A stretch of DNA of 64,000 nucleotides, from assembly GCF_007830115.1 (NCBI RefSeq), contig NZ_VLKP01000003.1, positions 1 through 64,000 of the forward strand. The letters are read 5' to 3'. Below, one piece after another: positions 14,651-60,412 of the stretch (positions are counted from its first letter, which is position 1; each line of letters starts with the position of its first letter). This DNA comes from Aerolutibacter ruishenii. Lineage in GTDB: Bacteria; Pseudomonadota; Gammaproteobacteria; Xanthomonadales; Xanthomonadaceae. The translations under genes were made by a program, and so were the position numbers. Under the pieces are notes generated by a model. It worked only from the letters and a program-made list of their open reading frames with translations. It did not search any database and was not told the DNA's origin.

Positions 14651-15463
14651 ATGACGGAGACAGGCCGCATAGGGCGGCCGCCATCCATGAGTCAATCCGA
14701 CGTCGTCGATCTGGCGCGCCTGCGCCGCAGTTGTGCGCATTGTTCGCTGCAGGAATTGTGCCTTCCGGCGGGCATTACCGGTGAGGAACTGGCGGAACTC
14801 GACAGCATCATGCGCCGTCGCCGCCCGCTGAATCGCAATGAGCGCCTGTTCCACCACGGGGACGCACTCAATTGCGTGTTCGTGGCCCGCGAGGGCGCGT
14901 TCAAAACCATCAGCATTTCGCGCGAGGGTGACGAGACGGTCGTGGGATTCCACATGCCCGGGGAGCTCATCGGCCTGGATGCGCTGGGTGATGGCCACCA
15001 CCGCTGCGAGGCCATCGCGCTGGTGGACTCCAGCGTATGCGAGATCCCATTCGACCGCCTCACCGAGATCGCCAGCCACATCCCCGGCCTGCAGTTCCAG
15101 TTGATGCGCGTCATCGGCCAGAGCGTGAGCCGTGACCAGGACCACATGGCGATGCTGCTGCGCCGGCAGGCGCATGAGCGGCTGGCGATGTTCCTGATGG
15201 GCCTGCGCGAACGGCTGGAGATCCTGGGCCAGCGCAGCGACGTGTTCCGCCTGCCCATGAGTCGCGAGGACATCGCGGCCTACCTGGGCCTTGCCCTGGA
15301 AACCGTCAGTCGGGCATTCGGCCGCTTGCAGGACGACGGCATCATCCACGTGCATGGCCGCAGCATCGAAGTGTTGAATGCCGATGCATTGGATGCCTGC
15401 GCACACGGGGAGCAGACGCCGCCCTCCGCGGGCCGCCGCTGCGGCTCACGCACGCAGGGATAG
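14651..15463 (+). CDS. fnr: FNR-type oxygen-sensing transcription regulator
   Basis: 270-residue Crp/Fnr regulator. Cys-28, Cys-31 and Cys-37 (CAHCSLQELC) match the C-x2-C-x5-C of E. coli FNR, and the fourth cluster ligand is in VCEIPF. It should therefore bind an oxygen-labile [4Fe-4S] cluster and dimerise without oxygen. The recognition helix AAYLGLALETVSRAF keeps the Glu-x2-Ser-Arg residues that read TTGAT-N4-ATCAA. It lies next to the cbb3 operon and is the obvious controller of the boxes found through this window. Start uncertain: an in-frame ATG lies at 14687. Confidence 0.93.
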   Translation: MTETGRIGRPPSMSQSDVVDLARLRRSCAHCSLQELCLPAGITGEELAELDSIMRRRRPLNRNERLFHHGDALNCVFVAREGAFKTISISREGDETVVGFHMPGELIGLDALGDGHHRCEAIALVDSSVCEIPFDRLTEIASHIPGLQFQLMRVIGQSVSRDQDHMAMLLRRQAHERLAMFLMGLRERLEILGQRSDVFRLPMSREDIAAYLGLALETVSRAFGRLQDDGIIHVHGRSIEVLNADALDACAHGEQTPPSAGRRCGSRTQG

Positions 15464-22972: not shown

Positions 22973-24448
22973 TCAGGCGCGCGCGTCGGCGGCGTCGGGC
23001 GGGAGCAGCGGCTGCGGGGCGACTTTCTCCACCTGCTGGTAGGTCTTCCACACGTTCCAGGCCATCAGCAACATGCCGGACAGGACCATCAGACCGCCGA
23101 GCAGGCGACCCAGGTAGTACGGGTAGGTCGCATTGAGCGCTTCGACGAACGTGTAGGTCAGCGTGCCGTCGTCGTTGGTGGCGCGCCACATCAGGCCCTG
23201 CATCACGCCCGCGATCCACATCGAGGCGATGTAGAACACCACGCCGATGGTGTGTACCCAGAAGTGCGTGTCGATCAGCTTGACCGAGTACATTTCCTTG
23301 AGGCCGAGCATGCGCGGCATCAGGGAGTAGATCGAGCCGATGGAAATCATCGCCACCCAGCCCAGGGCGCCGGCGTGGACGTGGCCCACGGTCCAGTCGG
23401 TGTAGTGGCTGAGCGAGTTGACCGTCTTGATCGACATCATCGGGCCTTCGAAGGTCGCGATCATGTAGAACGAGATGGCCACGATCAGGAACTTCAGGAT
23501 CGGGTCGGTGCGCAGCTTGTGCCACACGCCCGACAGGGTCATCACGCCGTTGATCGCACCGCCCCAGGACGGGGCCAGCAGGATCAGCGAGAACACCATG
23601 CCCACCGACTGCGCCCAGTCGGGCAGGGCGGTGTAGTGCAGGTGGTGCGGGCCGGCCCACATGTACACCGCGATCAGCGCCCAGAAGTGCACGATGGACA
23701 GGCGGTAGGAGTAGATCGGGCGCTGCGCCTGCTTGGGCACGTAGTAGTACATCATGCCCAGGAAGCCGGCGGTCAGCAGGAAGCCCACCGCGTTGTGGCC
23801 GTACCACCACTGCGCCATCGCATCGACCGCGCCGCTGTAGGCCGAGTACGACTTGGTCAGCGTTGCGGGTAGCGCGATGTTGTTGACGATGTGCAGCAGC
23901 GCGATGGCCAGGATGTACGCGCCGTAGAACCAGTTGGCGACGTAGATGTGCTTGACCTTGCGCTTGGCGATGGTGCCGAAGAACAGCACCGCGTATGCCA
24001 CCCACACGATGGTGATCAGCAGGTCGATGGGCCACTCGAGCTCGGCATACTCCTTGCCCTGGGTCAGGCCCAGCGGCAGGGTGATCGCGGCGGCGACGAT
24101 GACCAGTTGCCAGCCCCAGAACACGAAGGCGGCCAGCTTGTCGGAGATCAGCCGGACGTGGCAGGTGCGCTGCACCACGTGCAGGCTGGTGGCGAACAGC
24201 GCCGAGCCGCCGAAGGCGAAGATCACCGCGTTGGTGTGCAACGGGCGCAGTCGACCGTAGCCCAGCCACGGAATGCCTTCACCCAGCGTGGGCCAGTACA
24301 GCTGGGCGGCGATGATCACGCCCACCAGCATGCCGACAATGCCCCACAGGACGGTGGCGACGGCGAATTGCCGGACCACGCGATCGTTGTAATAACCGGC
24401 CAAGCCGGCGCCCGCGCTGTCGGGGCGCGCGACATCGTTATAAGTCAT
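22973..24448 (-). CDS. ccoN: cbb3 cytochrome c oxidase catalytic subunit CcoN
   Basis: 491-residue heme-copper oxidase subunit I with 12 or so membrane helices. Heme ligands are visible in [15 protein letters not shown]; the copper-site histidine is in [15 protein letters not shown] and the HH pair in [25 protein letters not shown] carries the high-spin heme region. It reduces oxygen to water at high affinity. The ATG at 24448 was chosen because the extra 23 upstream residues would overlap the promoter. An FNR box centred 62.5 bases upstream indicates induction at low oxygen. Confidence 0.95.
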
Positions 24449-24503
24449 GGGAATACCTTCGACGAGGGTTGGCGATATTTTGGAGGGGCATGAAACGGTG
24501 GAC

Positions 24504-24517
24504 TTGATCTGGATCAA
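24504..24517 (-). promoter_or_regulatory. FNR box upstream of ccoN
   Basis: TTGATCTGGATCAA is a perfect TTGAT-N4-ATCAA palindrome. With the centre at -41.5, transcription would start near 24469, leaving a 20-base leader to the ccoN start. An AT-rich run at 24475-24481 sits at the -10 position. Confidence 0.9.
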
Positions 24518-27834: not shown

Positions 27835-29358
27835 TCAGTGACCTCCCGAGGCGTTGGCCGGAGTGGCCTTGCGGGCAGCCGCGGCTTCGGCCTTGGTCAC
27901 CTGGCCACCCGGGTTGCCCCAGCTGTTGAGGACGTAGGTGGAGATGTTGGCCACTTCGTCGTCGGTCAACTGGTTCATCGGCGGCATGTTGGAGTTGTAG
28001 TCCTTGCCGTTGACCTTCACCGGGCCCACCAGGCCGTGCAGGATCACCTGCGGCACGCGCTTGGGATCAGCCTTGATCCAGTCGGAGCCAGCCAGCGGCG
28101 GGAACACGCCCTCGAGGCCCTGGCCATTGGCCTGGTGGCAGGTCGAGCAGGTACCGGCGAACAGCGCCTGGCCGGCCTTGATCTGCTCTTCCTTGGTCAG
28201 CGCACCGGCCTTGGCCGAAGCGGCGGCGGTGGCAACGGCGGCCATGTTCGGCTGCGCACGGTCACCCAGGTAGACCTCGTCCACTTCCTTGCCCGAGTAG
28301 ATTTCCTTGTTCTCCGGGCCATCGGCCTTGAGGATCGCAAGGGCACCCTTGTTGAAGGCGCGGAACAGGCTGTGGTCGACCAGCACGTAGCTGCCCGGCA
28401 CTTCCATGTGGAAGTCCATCATGGCGGCGCCACCGGCGGGGATCAGCGTGGTCTGCACGTTCTCCTGGTAGTGCGTGCCACCCTCGTACCAGACCTTGTC
28501 GAATATCTCGCCGATCACGTGGAAGCTCGACACCAGGTTCGGGCCACCGTTGCCCACGTACAGGCGCACGGTTTCGCCGACCTTGGCGGTCAGGGCGTTG
28601 TCACCGGTCATCGAGCCTTCGCTGCCGTTGAACAGCACGTAGCTCGGGTTCTCGTCGATCGCCTTCTGCATGTCGAACGGCGCATGGCCCTTCTCGCGGT
28701 ACTTGGTGGTCGTGTAGAAGTCGCCCTGCATCACGTAGTACTCCTTGTCGACCTTCGGCAGTCCTTCCGGCGGCTCGACCAGGATAAGGCCGTACATGCC
28801 GTTGGCCACGTGCATGCCCACCGGTGCGGTTGCGCAGTGGTACACGTACAGGCCAGCGTTGAGGGCCTTGAAGGTGAAGCGGGACTTGTGGCCCGGCGCG
28901 GTGAAGCTGGACGCGGCGCCGCCGCCCGGACCGGTCACGCCGTGCAGGTCGATGTTGTGAGGCATCTTGCTGTCGGGTGCGTTCTTCAGGTGGAACTCCA
29001 CCGTGTCACCCTGGCGCACGCGGATGAAGCTGCCCGGCACCGTGCCGCCGAAGGTCCAGAAGGTGTAGGTGACGCCTTCGGAAATCGGCATCTCCTTCTC
29101 GACTACCTCCAGTTCCACGATGACCTTGGCCGGTGCGGTGCGGCCAGTGGCCGGCGGTACCAGCGGCGGCGCGGTCAGCACGGCCTTGACCGGCTCGCCC
29201 TGGGGCGGACCGAAATCGCCCTTGCGCGAACCACCGGTATCCTTGGCCGCTGCGGCCTTGGCGGTGTCCTTGCCGGACTCCTTGCTGCTGTCGCAGCCCG
29301 CCAGCGTCATTGCGAGCGCGGCGGTTGCGAGGACCAGCGATTGGGTGACACGTCTCAT
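27835..29358 (-). CDS. nirK: Copper nitrite reductase NirK with fused C-terminal cytochrome c
   Basis: 507-residue lipoprotein (lipobox LAMTLAGC). Two cupredoxin domains (about 60-370) carry the type 1 copper ligands (His in MPHNIDLH, Cys in [11 protein letters not shown], its His, Met in ANGMYG) and type 2 ligands (DLH, YHC, FHVIGE), with the catalytic Asp in NIDLH. An Ala-rich linker leads to a cytochrome c domain with CSTCH and a Met ligand in MPPMNQL. It reduces nitrite to NO, the cytochrome supplying electrons internally. ATG at 29358 has AAGGGG 8 bases upstream; ATG at 29364 abuts it and is less likely. Confidence 0.94.
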
Positions 29359-29404
29359 GAACATCCCCTTCAACAATGGCCACATGGCCTACGGTGGCAA
29401 GATT

Positions 29405-29427: not shown

Positions 29428-29441
29428 ATGATCAGAATCAA
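29428..29441 (-). promoter_or_regulatory. FNR/DNR-like box upstream of nirK
   Basis: ATGATCAGAATCAA differs from TTGAT-N4-ATCAA at one position. Its centre is 76.5 bases from the nirK start; at -41.5 it would give a leader of about 35 bases. Confidence 0.65.
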
Positions 29442-30770: not shown

Positions 30771-31006
30771 ACTGCCTCGACTTCCGTGGTCTCACGGCCC
30801 CCGAGCCGCTGTTGCAGGCCCTGGCCGCGGCTGACGCACTCGGGCCTGGACAGTCGGTCGAGGTGCTGACCCCATTGCTGCCCACACCGCTGCTGGATGC
30901 CCTGGCCGCGCGTGGGCTGGCGTGGCGGGCCGAATCCGCGCCCGATGGCGGCGTCCGGGTCGCCATCCAGCGACCGGCGGCAGCGGATGGCCAAGCTCTC
31001 GATTGA
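30767..31006 (+). CDS. DUF2249 domain protein
   Basis: 79 residues of the TusA-like DUF2249 fold: LDFRGLTAPEPLLQALAAADAL, VEVLTPLLPTPLLDAL and RGLAWRAE. Such proteins recur in denitrification and NO-response clusters; their role is unknown. It overlaps the porin by 4 bases and the next gene by 20 bases, so the three are translationally coupled. Confidence 0.8.
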   Translation: MNCLDFRGLTAPEPLLQALAAADALGPGQSVEVLTPLLPTPLLDALAARGLAWRAESAPDGGVRVAIQRPAAADGQALD

Positions 31007-32255
31007 ACAGGCACCGGCGTCGTGGACGCCTCGGTTGTTCCTGCTCACTGCTTCGGCATGGGCGGGCGCGGCGGGTGGGATGCTGGTGTTCGAAGGGGCG
31101 GTGGCGCTCACCTCGCGCTGGGGGAGCGCCACGCTTGCGTTGGTGCACGCGTTGACGCTCGGCTTCCTGGGCAATGCGATGTTCGGCAGCCTGTTGCAGT
31201 TCCTGCCGGTGGCGGCGGGGGTGCCCGTTCGTGGCGGGCGATCCGGCGCTTTGTTGCTTCATGGCCTGTTGAACCTGGGTACGTTCGTTCTGGTGGTGGC
31301 GCTGCGTTGGCCACAGGCATGCCCGGCCTGGTGGGGCGGCGTGATGCTGGTGGGTGCCTTCGCGTTGCTGGCCTCGCTCGTCCTGCCGGGCGTATCGGGT
31401 GTCGCCGCAAAACGATTCCTGCACTGGGGACTTGGCGGTGCCGTTGCAGGTGGCCTGGTCACGGCGGGTTTGGGCTTGCTCCTCGCGCTTGGCTTGTCGG
31501 GGCTGGTTGCTGTCCCGTTGCGGCCGTTGACCGATGTGCATGCGGCGTGGGGCGTGCTGGGCTGGGTAGTGGTGCTGCTGGCGTCGGTGTCGCGGGTAGT
31601 CGGGCCCATGTTCCAGGGGATGGCGGTCCTACGGGAGCGTTGGCAGGCGTTCTGGATGACCGGAATGCTTGCAGTCCTCGCCGCGGGCTTGGTCGCCGCT
31701 TTCCAAGGCCTGACGCCGCCATGGTTCCGCATGGGGGTGGGACTGGGCGGCCTGCTGTTCGCGGCCACCGGGCTGCTGATGCAGGCGCGCGCGCCGAAGT
31801 TGCGCAAGGTGCCACTGACCGGTTTCTGGCTGGCCGGGTTGTCCGCCACCGCCGCAGGTGCCGTGATGCTGCTGGTCGATGGATCCCCCGGGATGCTTGC
31901 GGGCGTGCTGGCCATTGGCATCGGCCTGCCGCTACTGGTGGTGGGCATGCAACTGGAAATCGTCGCCTTCCTCGGCTGGATCAGGCTGCACCGGCGTTGC
32001 GGCAAGGGCGTGCGGCTGCCGGGCGTCCAACTGCTTCTGCCGGAGCGTGACAAGTACGCAGTGCTGGCCCTGCACGTGGCCGCCGCTGCAATGCTGGCGA
32101 CGGCGACGGCGACCGCGACCGCCACCGCGGCGGATGCGATAACTCGAGCAGCGGGCGCTGCAGTGCTGTTGGCGCACGCCTCTACGTTTGCCGCACTGTG
32201 CGGCGTAAGTTGGCGAAGCCGTCGTTTCGTGCAGCAACTGGGGAGGTGCACATGA
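30987..32255 (+). CDS. Polytopic membrane protein of denitrification cluster (NnrS-like or heme-copper-like, uncertain)
   Basis: 422 residues with about 12 membrane helices. Several helices carry single histidines (ALVHALTLGFLGNAMFGS, TDVHAAWGVLGW, VLALHVAAA, LLAHASTFAAL), which suggests a heme or metal protein distantly like NnrS or oxidase subunit I. I cannot assign it firmly. A repeated Thr-Ala stretch (ATATATATATAA) lies near residue 380, encoded by a GCGACG-type hexanucleotide run at 32095-32130 that could slip. The ATG at 30987 lies inside the DUF2249 gene. Confidence 0.7.
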   Translation: MAKLSIEQAPASWTPRLFLLTASAWAGAAGGMLVFEGAVALTSRWGSATLALVHALTLGFLGNAMFGSLLQFLPVAAGVPVRGGRSGALLLHGLLNLGTFVLVVALRWPQACPAWWGGVMLVGAFALLASLVLPGVSGVAAKRFLHWGLGGAVAGGLVTAGLGLLLALGLSGLVAVPLRPLTDVHAAWGVLGWVVVLLASVSRVVGPMFQGMAVLRERWQAFWMTGMLAVLAAGLVAAFQGLTPPWFRMGVGLGGLLFAATGLLMQARAPKLRKVPLTGFWLAGLSATAAGAVMLLVDGSPGMLAGVLAIGIGLPLLVVGMQLEIVAFLGWIRLHRRCGKGVRLPGVQLLLPERDKYAVLALHVAAAAMLATATATATATAADAITRAAGAAVLLAHASTFAALCGVSWRSRRFVQQLGRCT

Positions 32256-32312: not shown

Positions 32313-33176
32313 ATGACTGAGAATATGCCCGGCCTCGCGCAGGTGCGCCGGGCTATTGACGGCGTCGACGACGGCCTGGTGCTGTTGCTCGCCGCACGAT
32401 CCCGCCTGGCCCGCGTGGCCGGTCGCATCAAGGCGCGCGCGGGTGCCGGTGGCCGCGATGAGGCCCGGGAGCAGAGGGTGCGCCAGCGTGCTGCCAGCCT
32501 GGCCACGGCACTGGGGCTGGAACCGGAAGTGGCGACCGGGATCCTGGAACTGGCCATCGGCGCGGCCTGCCGCGACCAGGGGCTCACAAATGATCTGGAT
32601 CAAGGTGGCACGGGTGGCAGCGGGCGCATGATCGCGTCCACCATGCATACCCGATCCGATCCCACGCCCGCCCGGGCGCAGCAGTTGTTGCGCTTCGTTC
32701 CGCCGCCGCGGCGCATTGCGCCGCTCCTGCGCGTGGTACCGCTTGCGGTGCAGCAGCGCCTGCTGGAACGGGCCATGGCGAAGGTCCTGTCCGGCCCCCT
32801 GAACGGGGGGGCATTGGAATTCATGGCCGGCCGTCGTCTCGGCATCGAAGTCAGCGACCTGGCATTGCGCTGGGTGGTGGAACTGCAAGGTTCGCGTCTG
32901 GTGGTGGTCGATGCGCCCGCCGAAGCCACCGTCCGGGGCACGGTAACCGACCTGCTGCTGCTGGCCGGTCGATTGGAGGATGCGGATACGCTGTTCTTCC
33001 AGCGGCGCCTGGTGCTGACCGGCGACACCGAATTGGGGCTGACAGCCCGCAACGTGCTGGATCGACTGCCATGGGAGCGCGTGCCGCTTGGCCTGAGGAT
33101 CGCGCTCAACCGCGGTGCGCGTTTCGCCAGTGCCGCACGCAGCGCCCACCGCGCGGGTGGTGGTGCCAACACCTGA
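32313..33176 (+). CDS. Chorismate mutase-UbiT fusion (AroQ domain plus SCP2 lipid-binding domain)
   Basis: One continuous frame with two domains. The first about 95 residues are an AroQ chorismate mutase: RRAIDGVDDGLVLLLAARSRL, then K in RIKARAG and RDEAREQR, matching catalytic Arg, Lys-39, Asp-48, Arg-51 and Glu-52 of the E. coli enzyme. After a Gly-rich linker, the remainder is UbiT (YhbT), with LEFMAGRRLGIEV and DADTLFFQRRLVLTGDTELGL, needed for oxygen-independent ubiquinone synthesis. An FNR-like box and two ATGs (32628, 32643) lie in the linker; the second gives a UbiT of normal length. Start 32313 follows GGAG; ATG 32295 is an alternative. Confidence 0.85.
   Translation: MTENMPGLAQVRRAIDGVDDGLVLLLAARSRLARVAGRIKARAGAGGRDEAREQRVRQRAASLATALGLEPEVATGILELAIGAACRDQGLTNDLDQGGTGGSGRMIASTMHTRSDPTPARAQQLLRFVPPPRRIAPLLRVVPLAVQQRLLERAMAKVLSGPLNGGALEFMAGRRLGIEVSDLALRWVVELQGSRLVVVDAPAEATVRGTVTDLLLLAGRLEDADTLFFQRRLVLTGDTELGLTARNVLDRLPWERVPLGLRIALNRGARFASAARSAHRAGGGANT
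32590..32603 (+). promoter_or_regulatory. Intragenic FNR-like box ahead of the UbiT domain
   Basis: ATGATCTGGATCAA has one mismatch to TTGAT-N4-ATCAA and lies inside the chorismate mutase-UbiT frame. With the centre at -41.5, transcription would begin near 32638, with CATGAT (32627-32632) as -10 and the in-frame ATG at 32643 as first codon. Confidence 0.65.
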
Positions 33177-37693: not shown

Positions 37694-38647
37694 TCAGGCG
37701 GCGGCGACCGGGCGCATGCCCGGTTCGCCGTGCCAGTAGCCGTTGCGCTGGCCGATGCGCGGCGGTGCGGTCAGGCTGTTGCGCGCCAGGTCGAAGTGGC
37801 GGACCACCGCCTCCATGCCTTCCGCCTGCGGGTAAAGCCGCAGGATGTCCACGCCCAGCGCGCGCAGGTCCGGCAGCTCCGGCCCCAGGTCGGTGACCTC
37901 CTCGCCCTGCACCTGGATGCCATTGATGCGCAGGAACGGGCGTCCCTCGCGCGTGGCCAGCGGCAGCCCATCCGGGTAGTCGATGCAACGGAAACCGCAC
38001 TGGTCCTTGGCGATGTCCAATGCGCGCGCGGTGAAGCAGCGGGCCGAGTACGACAGCGGCAGGCGGCCCCAGGCAATCACCTCCAGTTCCGGCATTGCAC
38101 CGCCCTCCTGCTCGAGCGCGTCCTTCAGCTCGCGGATCAGCACCTCGCCCTGTTCCACGCCCGGTACCCAGCGGCGCAGGCCATCTTCGACCAGCATCGC
38201 CAACGCACGGTGGTTGTAGACGTTCAACGCCGGGCCGGCAACGAACGGCAAGCCTTTTTCGCGGCACAACTGCACCGCCGACAGGTCATTGGCCTCTACC
38301 CAGAAGCCACCGTGCGAGATCTGCCGATTGAGCACGCTCAGTTCGGACTCGGCTTCGATCAGCGCCAGCGACGACAGCACGATCTGCTTGCCGCTCGTGG
38401 CCAGTTCCTCGGCCAGTTCGATCCACTCGACGGTGCGCAGCTCGCGCCGCTTGCTGCACACGGTTTCGCCCAGGTAGACGATGTCCACTGGCCAGTGGAT
38501 GGCCTCGCGGTAGAAGGCGAGGGTGGTTTCGCGCGGCCAGAAATATTGCAGCGGGCCCAGGCTGATCTTCAGGCGGTTGGCTTGTTCAGCCGGCGCCGCG
38601 GAATCGGGCGCAGTGGCGTGGGCCGGCGTGGCGACGGTGTCGGTCAT
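37694..38647 (-). CDS. ubiV: UbiV, U32-family protein for oxygen-independent ubiquinone synthesis
   Basis: 317 residues, U32 peptidase family. Cys residues in LGETVCSKRREL, SARCFTARALD, DQCGFRC match the four [4Fe-4S] ligands of E. coli UbiV. UbiU-UbiV catalyses oxygen-independent hydroxylation of the ubiquinone ring, using prephenate as oxygen donor in the E. coli system. The ATG at 38647 is preferred over a longer frame that overlaps ubiU. It lies 28 bases downstream of ubiU. Confidence 0.92.
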   Translation of the reverse strand: MTDTVATPAHATAPDSAAPAEQANRLKISLGPLQYFWPRETTLAFYREAIHWPVDIVYLGETVCSKRRELRTVEWIELAEELATSGKQIVLSSLALIEAESELSVLNRQISHGGFWVEANDLSAVQLCREKGLPFVAGPALNVYNHRALAMLVEDGLRRWVPGVEQGEVLIRELKDALEQEGGAMPELEVIAWGRLPLSYSARCFTARALDIAKDQCGFRCIDYPDGLPLATREGRPFLRINGIQVQGEEVTDLGPELPDLRALGVDILRLYPQAEGMEAVVRHFDLARNSLTAPPRIGQRNGYWHGEPGMRPVAAA

Positions 38648-38675
38648 GGCAAGTCCATTGGTGGGCGCGACTGGC

Positions 38676-39674
38676 TCAGTGCCACGCGCGGTGGTACGGG
38701 CCCAGGGTGGTCTGGTGGCCTTCGGCGTGGCGCGACAGTTCGCTCTGCCACTCGGGTTGCAGCTGCCAGTGCGCCTCGTCGGCCGCCAGTCGATCCAGCG
38801 CCTTGCGCCAGGTTCGCGTGACGGAGCTGACATAGGCCACGCCGCGCTGGCGGCCTTCGATCTTCAGCGCGGTCACGCCGGCCTGTTTCAGGCGCGGCAG
38901 CAGTTCCAGCGTGTTGAGGCTGGTCGGTTCTTCCAGTGCATGGAAGATTTCATTGCCCACGTCGAAACGGCCCTTGCACACCGTCGGGTAGCCCGCCGGT
39001 TCCTCGGGCTTGAATTCGTCGATCAGCACGTCGTTGAGGCGTACGCTGCGGCTGCCATCGTTGTGCTCGTCCCAGCGCACGAACTTGGCCGGTGAGCACA
39101 CGCCGTGCCGGTTGGGCGAGGCGCCGGTCACGTAACTGGAGAGCTGGCAGCGCCCTTCGACCATGATGCACAGGCTGCCGAAGGCGAACACCTCCAGCGC
39201 CACCGGCGAGTTCTGGCACAGCCGCTCCACCTGCTGGATCGACAGCACCCGCGGCAGCACGGCACGGCTGATGCCGAACCGTTCGTAGGCATAGCGCAGC
39301 GCCGGTGCGGTGGTGGCCGAGCCCTGCACCGACAAGTGGCGCGGCAGCCCAGGGTGCGTGCGCGCCGCGTAATCGAGCACCGCCATTTCCGCGGCGATGA
39401 TGGCGTCGGCGCCCAGCGCCGCCGCCTTGTCCACCGCGGCGTGCCAGTCCCTCAGCCGCGCACTGTCGGGATAGGTGTTTAGCGCCAGGTACACCTTGGC
39501 GTTTTTCGCATGCGCGTAGCGGATGCCCGCGCGCAGCTCGTCATCACTGAAATTCAGCCCGGGGAAGGCGCGCGCGTTGGTCTGGTCGCGGAAGCCCGCG
39601 TACACCGCGTTGGCGCCGGCATCCACCGCGGCCTGCAGGGCCGGCAGGTTGCCGGCGGGACACACCAGTTGCAT
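38676..39674 (-). CDS. ubiU: UbiU, U32-family protein for oxygen-independent ubiquinone synthesis
   Basis: 332 residues, partner of UbiV. N-terminus LVCPAGNLPALQAAVDAGA; cluster Cys in FGSLCIMVEGRCQLS, RHGVCSPA and YPTVCKGRF correspond to the four ligands of E. coli UbiU. KIEGRQRGVAYV is the U32 signature. The ATG at 39674 matches the family N-terminus. A perfect FNR-type palindrome lies 62.5 bases upstream. Confidence 0.93.
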   Translation of the reverse strand: MQLVCPAGNLPALQAAVDAGANAVYAGFRDQTNARAFPGLNFSDDELRAGIRYAHAKNAKVYLALNTYPDSARLRDWHAAVDKAAALGADAIIAAEMAVLDYAARTHPGLPRHLSVQGSATTAPALRYAYERFGISRAVLPRVLSIQQVERLCQNSPVALEVFAFGSLCIMVEGRCQLSSYVTGASPNRHGVCSPAKFVRWDEHNDGSRSVRLNDVLIDEFKPEEPAGYPTVCKGRFDVGNEIFHALEEPTSLNTLELLPRLKQAGVTALKIEGRQRGVAYVSSVTRTWRKALDRLAADEAHWQLQPEWQSELSRHAEGHQTTLGPYHRAWH

Positions 39675-39729
39675 GGGAGGCTTCCTGCTGGGGAAGCATG
39701 AATGGTCTTGCGTGGCGCCGGACGCGTCA

Positions 39730-39743
39730 TTGATTTGCGTCAA
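39730..39743 (-). promoter_or_regulatory. FNR box upstream of ubiUV
   Basis: TTGATTTGCGTCAA fits TTGAT-N4-GTCAA. With the centre at -41.5 the transcript starts near 39695, a 20-base leader for ubiU. It lies over 110 bases from the divergent PepSY gene, so ubiU is the likely target. Confidence 0.85.
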
Positions 39744-58196: not shown

Positions 58197-59003
58197 TTAG
58201 CCGCGCAGGACTGGTGCGGCCAGTGTCGTCATCCGCGCCATGTCGAGGATTTCCATTTCCCGGCGGTCGACGTTGATCAGGTTTTCCTGCTGGAACCGGC
58301 GTAGCACGCGGCTGACCGTTTCGGCGGCCAGGCCGAGGTAGTTGGCGATGTCGGCACGCGGCATCGGCAGGTGCAGGCGCGTGGCCGAGTAGCCGCGCGC
58401 TGCATAGCGGCGCGACAGGGAGACGAGGAAGGCGGCCATGCGCTCGTCGGCGCTGAAGTCGCCGGCGCGGACGGCGGCCTTGCCGATGTCGGCCGAAAGC
58501 AGCTTGAACAGGTGCTGCTGCAGGCCCGGCATGCGGGTGGCCAGGGTGGCGATCTGCGGGAACGAGAACCGGCAGAGGGTGACGGTGTCCAGCGCCACGG
58601 CGTCGCAGGGGTAGTGGTCGTCGTGGATGCCGTTGAGGCCGATCACCTCGCCGGGCAGGTAGAAGCCCAGCACCTGTTCGCGCCCGTGGCCGTCGACCAT
58701 GCTGGTCTTGACCGTACCGGCGCGGACCGCGGCGATGGCGTTGAACGCGTCGCCTTCGCGGAACAGCATGGTGCCGGCGTGGAATGGACCGACGTGCTCG
58801 ACCAGCACGTGCAGGTCACGCAGCGCAGCCTTGTCGTACCCCTGGGCCATGCAGGCGCTGGAGAACGCACAGGTCCCGCAGAACTCGACAGTGTCGTTGT
58901 CGTCCGAGATGGGCGCGACGGCCACCGGACTGACGCGCGGCGGCCGGTTCAAGCCGGAGCTCCCACGGTCAGATGGCGCGCGAGAATCGCGCGGGGGCGG
59001 CAC
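58197..59003 (-). CDS. Second FNR-type regulator with intact [4Fe-4S] ligands
   Basis: 268-residue Crp/Fnr protein. Cys-42, Cys-45 and Cys-51 (CGTCAFSSAC) follow the FNR C-x2-C-x5-C pattern and the fourth Cys is in LCRFSF. The recognition helix ANYLGLAAETVSRVL keeps Glu and Ser-Arg, so it should read the same boxes as the regulator at 14651. It lies between hemN and norZ, overlapping the hemN end by 35 bases when the GTG at 59003 is used; GTG at 58925 is an alternative start. Possibly an Anr- or Dnr-like regulator of NO and anaerobic genes. Confidence 0.9.
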   Translation of the reverse strand: MPPPRDSRAPSDRGSSGLNRPPRVSPVAVAPISDDNDTVEFCGTCAFSSACMAQGYDKAALRDLHVLVEHVGPFHAGTMLFREGDAFNAIAAVRAGTVKTSMVDGHGREQVLGFYLPGEVIGLNGIHDDHYPCDAVALDTVTLCRFSFPQIATLATRMPGLQQHLFKLLSADIGKAAVRAGDFSADERMAAFLVSLSRRYAARGYSATRLHLPMPRADIANYLGLAAETVSRVLRRFQQENLINVDRREMEILDMARMTTLAAPVLRG

Positions 59004-60363
59004 TGGGTTGCTGGAGGTAACGGTCGAAGCACATGGCTATGATACGCAAGAGCAGGCGTCCTGAGGGAGTGGCCCGGATGCGGTCGGCCTCGATCCGCAC
59101 CAGGCCGTCCTCGACCAGCGGCTGCAGGCGCTCGTAGGCGTCAGCGAAATACTCGCGGAAGTCGATGCCGTAGCGGCGCTCCAGCGACCGGATCGGGATC
59201 TCGCCCTGGCACATCAGGCATTGGATCAGGTCGGCCCTCAGCAGGTCGTCCTCGCTCAGGCGCATGCCGCGCCACACCGGCAGGCGGCCCTCGTCCAGCG
59301 CGATCTGCCAGCTGGGCAGGTCGCGCGGGTTCTGGCTGAAGCTGTCACCGATGTGGCTGATCGCGCTGACGCCCAGGCCCACCAGATCACTGTCGGCGTG
59401 GGTGGTGTAGCCCATGAAATTGCGATGCAGGCCGCCGCGCTGTTGTGCCAGCGACAGCTCGTCGTCGGGCAGGGCGAAGTGGTCCATGCCGATGTAGTCG
59501 TAACCGGCGGCGGTGAGCTTTTCGATGGCCAGGCGCAGCAGGTCCAGCTTCAGCTCGGCGCTGGGCAGGTCCTCGGCGTTGAGCTGGCGTTGCGGCTTGA
59601 ACATTTCCGGCAGGTGCGCGTAGCTGTACACGGCCAGGCGGCTGGGGCGGGCCAGCGCCACGGTGTCCAGCGTACGCTCGAAGCCGGCCAGGTTCTGCTT
59701 CGGCAGGCCGTAGATCAGGTCGACGTTGACCGAACGCATGCCGTTGTCGCGACAGGCGTTGATGATGGCCACGGTTTCTTCGACCGACTGGATGCGGTTC
59801 ACCGCTTCCTGCACGGCCGGATCGAAGTCCTGCACGCCCAGGCTGGCGCGGTTGAAGCCGGCCGCGGCCAGTTGCGCGACGTCGTCGGGCTTGATGAAGC
59901 GGGGGTCCAGCTCGATGGAGATGTCGCGATCGCGCGCCTCGCTGAAGCGGAAGTTGTTCCGCAGTACGTCAACCGTCTCGTGCAGTTGCGCCGGCGAGAG
60001 GAAGTTGGGCGTGCCTCCGCCGAAGTGTAGCTGGATGACCTCGCGGTCACGGTCGAACAGTCCCGCGACCAGTTCGATCTCCCGGTACAGGCGCGCCAGG
60101 TACGCGGCGCCACGGGCGAGGTCGCGGGTGATGATCCGGTTGCAGCCGCAGTAGAAACACGGGCTCATGCAGAACGGCACGTGCACGTACAGCGACAAAC
60201 GACGCGGGATGGGGTCGCCGTTGCTCAGTGCGGCCGCGTCGCGCAGTTGGCTCTCGCCGAAGCTGGCGCTGAACTGCGGTGCAGTGGGGTAGGACGTATA
60301 CCGCGGGCCGGGCCGGTCATAGCGGCGCAGCAGGTCGGCGTCAAAGGGCGGGATCACGGGCAT
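58969..60363 (-). CDS. hemN: Oxygen-independent coproporphyrinogen III dehydrogenase HemN
   Basis: 464-residue radical SAM enzyme with CMSPCFYCGCN (C-x3-C-x2-C) and the conserved GPRYTSYPTA N-terminus, FGGGTPNFL and VNVDLIYGLPKQ. It makes protoporphyrinogen IX from coproporphyrinogen III without oxygen, supplying heme for cbb3 and qNOR. Its ATG is only 42.5 bases from the centre of an FNR box and has no Shine-Dalgarno, so the transcript may be leaderless. Confidence 0.95.
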   Translation of the reverse strand: MPVIPPFDADLLRRYDRPGPRYTSYPTAPQFSASFGESQLRDAAALSNGDPIPRRLSLYVHVPFCMSPCFYCGCNRIITRDLARGAAYLARLYREIELVAGLFDRDREVIQLHFGGGTPNFLSPAQLHETVDVLRNNFRFSEARDRDISIELDPRFIKPDDVAQLAAAGFNRASLGVQDFDPAVQEAVNRIQSVEETVAIINACRDNGMRSVNVDLIYGLPKQNLAGFERTLDTVALARPSRLAVYSYAHLPEMFKPQRQLNAEDLPSAELKLDLLRLAIEKLTAAGYDYIGMDHFALPDDELSLAQQRGGLHRNFMGYTTHADSDLVGLGVSAISHIGDSFSQNPRDLPSWQIALDEGRLPVWRGMRLSEDDLLRADLIQCLMCQGEIPIRSLERRYGIDFREYFADAYERLQPLVEDGLVRIEADRIRATPSGRLLLRIIAMCFDRYLQQPSAAPARFSRAI

Positions 60364-60398: not shown

Positions 60399-60412
60399 TT
60401 GATTTGGGTCAA
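60399..60412 (-). promoter_or_regulatory. FNR box upstream of hemN (proximal)
   Basis: TTGATTTGGGTCAA is a TTGAT-N4-GTCAA palindrome. At -41.5 the start of transcription is at 60364, one base before the hemN ATG; TAGCGT (minus strand, 60376-60371) is at -10. Confidence 0.85.

Follow-up and report, generated by a model that had tools for sequence, protein, structure and literature searches.

We analysed 64,000 nucleotides of Aerolutibacter ruishenii (GCF_007830115.1, contig NZ_VLKP01000003.1, positions 1-64,000 of the forward strand; this whole stretch is referred to as the window) and found an AroQ chorismate mutase (CM) fused in one reading frame to UbiT, with a putative FNR-dependent promoter conserved in the linker between the two domains. 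The reading that we prefer, and to which we give a probability of about two in three, is that this gene belongs to the oxygen-independent ubiquinone pathway and gives two products, a long CM-UbiT and an FNR-induced, near-leaderless UbiT, and that the CM most likely makes prephenate. When read from upstream, the gene would yield CM-UbiT, in which an apparently catalytic AroQ CM is tied to the SCP2-type accessory protein UbiT by a disordered linker, and the same linker would double as a class II-like FNR promoter. In the absence of oxygen, 32590-32603 would be bound by an FNR-type regulator, RNA polymerase would use a -10 element at 32627-32632 and start transcription near 32640, and a near-leaderless message would be translated from the ATG at 32643 into UbiT alone, as predicted from the conserved DNA. 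The CM part may make prephenate, the reported organic oxygen donor, beside the UbiT-UbiU-UbiV machinery; our guess is that the long form would provide basal prephenate and that the extra anaerobic UbiT would carry lipid intermediates. If this is true, the likely oxygen donor of the anaerobic ubiquinone pathway is tied to its machinery in one gene.

The CM-UbiT gene (32313-33176, forward strand) is a single open frame from ATG to stop and encodes 287 residues. The preliminary description of this DNA had read it as a CM followed by a full UbiT in one frame, and the domain models bear this out: Pfam CM_2 matched residues 11-86 (32343-32570, forward strand) at 1.1e-12 (48.4 bits against a curated cut-off of 27), Pfam SCP2 matched residues 164-250, and the NCBIfam equivalog model of UbiT (NF047962) matched residues 139-255 at 7e-37 (126.4 bits against a cut-off of 46.9). 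In the predicted structure (mean pLDDT 86.9) a three-helix CM domain and a UbiT domain are joined by a linker whose residues 96-114 have pLDDT below 50, which we read as disorder. The predicted CM domain superimposed on E. coli chorismate mutase (1ecm) with a TM score of 0.86 by target length and an rmsd of 1.1, and comparison with the SCP2 domain of UbiJ (6h6p) gave a TM score of 0.71 by target length. A sequencing error or a hidden stop codon between CM and UbiT was ruled out as the source of the fusion, because 105 of the 127 distinct loci to which our collection was reduced share it as an open frame.

The CM domain is predicted to convert chorismate to prephenate, as judged from its active-site residues. 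We take the catalytic set of E. coli CM to be R11, R28, K39, D48, R51, E52 and Q88 (S84 was not required here). The equivalents in the window are R12, R29, K40, D49, R52, E53 and Q89, the first six placed by alignment to E. coli CM and the last (Q88) by sequence. The complete set of seven is present in 99 of the 105 distinct fused loci, and R12, R29, K40, R52 and E53 in all 105; the position equivalent to S84 is Ala in 92/105. dN/dS, estimated in 24 independent pairs of relatives, had a median of 0.20 for CM, 0.14 for UbiT and 0.64 for the linker. The same genome encodes two further CM-domain proteins, by sequence one of the PheA type (414 aa frame) and one of the TyrA type (376 aa frame), the latter with its CM at the C-terminal end. 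The fusion resembles bifunctional chorismate mutases such as PheA and TyrA, in which an AroQ domain is fused to the next user of prephenate; here, in contrast, the partner is a lipid-binding accessory protein and not an enzyme that acts on prephenate. AroQ domains form intertwined dimers, and the CM could instead be a dimerising or scaffolding module for UbiT, with its catalysis irrelevant to the quinone pathway. The presence of the other CM-domain proteins in the genome would fit such a role, as would two genomes that lost the CM and kept UbiT and UbiU, and unfused CM neighbours of ubiT without one catalytic residue as aligned (both described below). However, a scaffold alone would need no active site, and the CM has kept its catalytic residues in nearly all fused loci and is under purifying selection, which makes this explanation unlikely.

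The fusion is not confined to this genome. The preliminary description had pointed to related genomes as the place to look for it, and we found it in four families of Xanthomonadales (f1, f12, f2 and f3). This genome groups with the Lysobacteraceae, and among named relatives that carry the full query Lysobacter daejeonensis GH1-9 is the closest, at 79% identity. In a sample of 198 genomes of the family, UbiT was found in 46 and UbiU in 47 over the curated cut-offs, the two together in 45, UbiT only in one and UbiU only in two. A single alignment covered CM and UbiT in 42 of the 46 family genomes with UbiT; of the other four, one is fused according to the profile (G125), two have the gene cut by contig ends (G167 and G150) and one is without CM (G103). 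In a search of the order (398 genomes), 59 of the 97 UbiT genomes among the matches listed aligned over the full fusion, and the remaining 38 had UbiT only or a broken CM. Fused genes occur in Thermomonas, Lysobacter, Arenimonas, Pseudoxanthomonas and Stenotrophomonas nitritireducens, and also in Rhodanobacter, Dyella, Frateuria, Dokdonella and Rehaibacterium. Two loci were left out of the fused count, as in Arenimonas daejeonensis (L108) and Luteimonas granuli (L109) the CM and UbiT frames differ, through either a real break or a sequence error. Outside the order, a search of 369 genomes of the class gave full-length fusion matches only in three members of the family itself. The alignment used in searching the order and the class, and in building the CM and UbiT models applied to neighbouring genes, had one of its 42 rows (L035) in the wrong frame; the later alignment A3 is without this row. 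From these sequences we conclude that the CM-UbiT fusion is old.

In the linker of the window gene lies the FNR-like box ATGATCTGGATCAA (32590-32603, forward strand), which has one mismatch to the consensus TTGATNNNNATCAA: its first base is A and that of the consensus is T. This box had been noted in the preliminary description, and with a looser rule a box is present in the linker of 70 of the 105 fused loci. Chance as the origin of the boxes was rejected in two ways. The window holds eight sites with at most one mismatch to the consensus, compared to 0.43 expected from shuffles, and an unplaced scan of the 105 linkers gave at most one mismatch in 31 and at most two in 61, while 200 synonymous recodings of the encoded proteins averaged 2.9 (maximum 8) and 12.9 (maximum 20), respectively. 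Glutamine at the linker boxes is encoded by CAA in 46/68 cases versus 13.8 expected from the same genes, a count that is biased since the boxes were picked partly by that letter; the synonymous-recoding test is free of this bias. CRP sites favour G before TGA and C as the last base. A G precedes TGA in only 1/56 of the thinned boxes and their last base is never C, and because both CRP-preferred bases are thus missed we judged a CRP site unlikely.

Downstream of the box, the hexamer CATGAT (32627-32632, forward strand) lies at the position of a -10 element, and in-frame ATG codons are present in the window linker at 32628 and 32643. Columns 38 and 42, counted from the box start, hold the -10 A and last T without exception in the 56 thinned loci, with the same 23-base spacing from box to -10 in each (56/56), and neither column was used when picking the boxes. 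In a class II FNR promoter the -10 element comes 22 bases after the box, whose centre is at -41.5. As a control we scanned 128 ubiU genes of the order and class loci, and 24 of them proved to have, within 200 bases, a box that departs from the consensus at one position at most; in the 18 thinned ubiU promoters the A and T were found at the 22-base spacing in 14 and at the 23-base spacing in four. The 23-base spacing of the linkers, as opposed to 22 bases, possibly reflects a constraint of the reading frame. An in-frame ATG follows at +53 (44 loci) or +50 (23 loci) from the box start in 67 of the 70 boxed fusions, and C is found at +49 in 89% and A at +50 in 82%. This C-A preference suits a start of transcription there, which would leave a leader of 0 to 4 bases. 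Together with the distance from the -10 element it places the predicted start of the short message at 32639-32640 (forward strand), and the predicted short product, UbiT alone, would be encoded by 32643-33176 (forward strand), as the conserved internal ATG and the match to the UbiT model indicate. The elements on which the preliminary description had based an intragenic FNR promoter, namely CATGAT as the -10 and the in-frame ATG at 32643, are thus seen in the window and their geometry is conserved in relatives; of its further proposal, that this promoter releases a near-leaderless UbiT, the box, -10, spacing and ATG stand as conserved features and the short product itself stands as a prediction.

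The box could also be a by-product of a protein motif in the linker, D-x-[DG]-Q-G, with no internal promoter at all. All 70 linker boxes are indeed read in one phase of the UbiT frame, and many of them encode this motif. We nevertheless consider this account highly improbable, as the observed counts of boxes are beyond the reach of synonymous recodings and the linker is predicted to be disordered and has the median dN/dS of 0.64 given above. Moreover, the invariant A of the -10 falls on codons for seven different amino acids (Met, Ile, Thr, Lys, Asn, Ser and Arg) and the invariant T on codons for Ile, Leu, Met and Val, and a box of the same kind precedes the ATG of ubiT genes that stand alone. 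A second account of the internal start, which we give a very small chance, holds that cells do not actually make the long fusion and that only separately initiated CM and UbiT matter. The conservation of the internal start would agree with this, as would a CM with its own stop codon in two genomes (G423 and G208, see below). On the other hand, the distance from the box to UbiT varies between 53 and 122 bases and the frame is kept through these varied linkers in all 70 boxed loci, and 35 more fusions exist without a linker box. A frame that stays open across the promoter speaks for actual translation of the long product, as in the two-product reading.

Relatives in which ubiT is not fused suggest an origin for the linker promoter. 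Within the order, unfused ubiT genes can be preceded by a similar box, in L179 with the sequence TTGATCTGTATCAA and the ATG at +69, and further in L171 (ATG at +72), L178 (+78) and L170 (+49). The layout of L170, with its box, -10 A and T and near-leaderless ATG, is almost that of the fusions; in L169, a relative of L170, the box is weaker and the -10 letters are absent. Because these unfused relatives have a box before ubiT, the linker promoter is probably the original ubiT promoter. The simplest account that they suggest is that CM was joined to ubiT through this promoter, so that the CM reading frame would have been extended across it, and that the promoter then stayed in use. The promoter elements also persist where the CM was lost, in agreement with the intragenic promoter of the preliminary description: CM was not found in G439 (L172) and G405 (L173) and is broken in G353 (L174), and all three retain the box, the -10 letters, the ATG and UbiT, although the box of L173 is weak (three mismatches). 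UbiU is retained in G439 and G405 and lost in G353. A UbiT tree places these three loci among the fused Rhodanobacteraceae, with several forks open. As UbiT and UbiU persist in G439 and G405, where this CM is missing, the CM is not essential.

Some fusions without a linker box have one elsewhere. In 11 of these 35 fusions the 300 bases before CM contain a site with no more than one mismatch, compared to 2 of the 70 fusions with a linker box (Fisher p 8e-5), and 9 of the 14 boxes upstream of CM are followed, 22 bases on, by a -10 such as TAGCAT or TAGGAT. With a box in this position the whole fusion would be anaerobically induced, and CM-UbiT would itself be an anaerobic product. By the rules used here, neither a linker box nor an upstream box was found in 24/105 fusions. 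In the window no site with one mismatch or fewer was seen upstream of CM, between 29441 and 32590, and hence anaerobic induction of the long form is not apparent in this species. In this lineage the anaerobic promoter is thus predicted to give a form without CM, which counts against the simple version of a prephenate supply.

A CM next to ubiT is also found outside the order. Among 87 loci of the class, a set that includes loci truncated at contig ends and leaves out three genomes with weaker UbiT-type matches, a separate CM gene lies directly beside ubiT in five (L191, L192, L193, L234 and L259), which carry five family codes and have ubiU and ubiV near by. With guessed background rates, the chance of five CM neighbours within 4 kb in 87 loci is p 8e-5 at 0.5% and p 0.002 at 1%. 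The five loci sit on long branches of the UbiT tree and therefore cannot be counted as five separate origins. In L192, L234 and L259 the ubiT and CM genes diverge and an FNR-like box is present at their start, in L193 the CM comes after ubiT and a perfect box is found at the ubiT start, and in L191 the only perfect box is elsewhere in the locus. All five unfused CMs exceed the Pfam CM_2 cut-off. As aligned, they keep R, R, K, R and E, one of the five has the Asp and the final Gln is absent from a poorly aligned C-terminal end, so that their activity is less certain. No CM neighbour was found in the 39 loci of a phylum search (39 of at least 164 genomes with a UbiT match), 19 of which have ubiU and ubiV near by.

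The preliminary description had proposed that the fusion may feed prephenate, the oxygen donor used by UbiU-UbiV in E. coli, to the anaerobic quinone pathway. The unfused CM beside ubiT in five families speaks for this proposal; the predicted anaerobic form without CM speaks against it, and it is still an inference. We considered whether the CM instead serves general Phe and Tyr synthesis, or diverts chorismate from 4-hydroxybenzoate, and is joined to UbiT by history only. Two genomes bear on this, G423 (L276) and G208 (L275), in which a CM of the same kind is separate, with its own stop, between the upstream membrane-protein gene and fabA-fabB. In G423 ubiT and ubiU are on the same contig about 35 kb from the CM, and in G208 there was no UbiT match at 1e-12 and no UbiU, so that this CM without UbiT or UbiU is evidence against a strict tie between the two. 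Against a role in general metabolism, however, PheA-like and TyrA-like CM proteins are already encoded in the genome, the fusion has been maintained across four families, and elsewhere an unfused CM adjoins ubiT, in several cases with an FNR-like box between or upstream. We therefore regard a purely historical association as quite improbable and favour a CM that makes prephenate for the quinone pathway. A broader formulation, to which we assign roughly even odds, is that a ubiT promoter became protein-coding in Xanthomonadales, its FNR box and -10 now being read as the linker of the fusion, that oxygen selects between a CM-UbiT that makes prephenate where hydroxylation takes place and a near-leaderless UbiT, and that CM is a recurrent partner of UbiTUV that makes the donor locally. 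A conserved, apparently catalytic CM fusion and an unfused CM beside ubiT together provide genomic evidence that joins prephenate supply and UbiTUV. CM-UbiT thus bears on how prephenate reaches UbiU-UbiV and is a protein in which this link can be examined directly.

The predicted regulation resembles that of E. coli in part. According to the portion of PMC10470549 available to us, E. coli ubiT (yhbT) has a promoter P1 that is active aerobically and a promoter P2 that depends on FNR, and UbiT is important when cells pass from anaerobic to aerobic conditions. As there, UbiT is predicted here to be supplied with oxygen and, through FNR, also without it. Unlike in the E. coli gene as that portion presents it, where UbiT is unfused and both promoters are upstream, the FNR promoter here would lie in frame within the gene and alter the product. 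A survey of FNR control of ubiTUV across Pseudomonadota scanned, in the part that was accessible, 450 bases upstream of annotated starts (PMC11707229), and our FNR-like sites ahead of ubiT and ubiU are like those it describes. As the linker box is inside an annotated frame, we infer that an upstream-only scan such as the one described there would be expected to miss it. The linker would then be a clean case of a promoter maintained within a reading frame, whose FNR control upstream-only surveys are expected to overlook. A fusion of ubiT with ubiU has been reported in Zymomonas mobilis in the available part of PMC6747719; in both cases UbiT is fused to a protein of the same pathway (for the CM, on our reading), but the partner described there is the hydroxylase subunit UbiU, whereas here it is a chorismate mutase, together with an internal promoter. 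In the accessible text of a review that cites a 2024 PNAS paper, the hydroxyl group is stated to derive from prephenate (PMC11574389). We found no description of a CM-UbiT fusion, or of a link between UbiT or UbiU and CM, in the open-licence literature.

The other genes expected for such a pathway are close to CM-UbiT. The preliminary description had placed ubiUV 4 kb away, and ubiV and ubiU (37694-39743, reverse strand) indeed sit 4.5 kb downstream: ubiV (37694-38833, reverse strand) matched NF047965 at 1.2e-104 and ubiU (38676-39743, reverse strand) matched NF047963 at 2.2e-159, both over the cut-offs. The ubiV match begins at residue 89, so its true start is probably inside the frame, and the ubiU match begins at residue 24. 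An FNR-like box with one mismatch is located upstream of ubiUV (39730-39743, reverse strand). ubiU and ubiV occur together in 63 of the 80 named loci, a set that includes truncated ones. Two regulators that match Crp-family models are encoded in the window, one at 14651-15463 (forward strand), a candidate activator, and a second at 58197-59003 (reverse strand) that adjoins hemN. Both have FNR-like cysteine spacing (CxxCxxxxxC near the N-terminus) and an ETVSR helix, which we take to be the marks of an FNR-type regulator.

Further FNR-like sites in the window lie at 24504-24517, where a COX1-type oxidase frame (22976-24517) starts, at 29428-29441, upstream of a copper nitrite reductase gene (27835-29385, reverse strand), and at 60399-60412, upstream of a HemN-type gene (58972-60363). 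The copper nitrite reductase has a C-terminal cytochrome c-like stretch at residues about 402-499. The frame directly upstream of CM-UbiT (30897-32252, forward strand, 452 aa) had no Pfam or NCBIfam match; relatives of its product adjoin CM-UbiT or CM in many loci.
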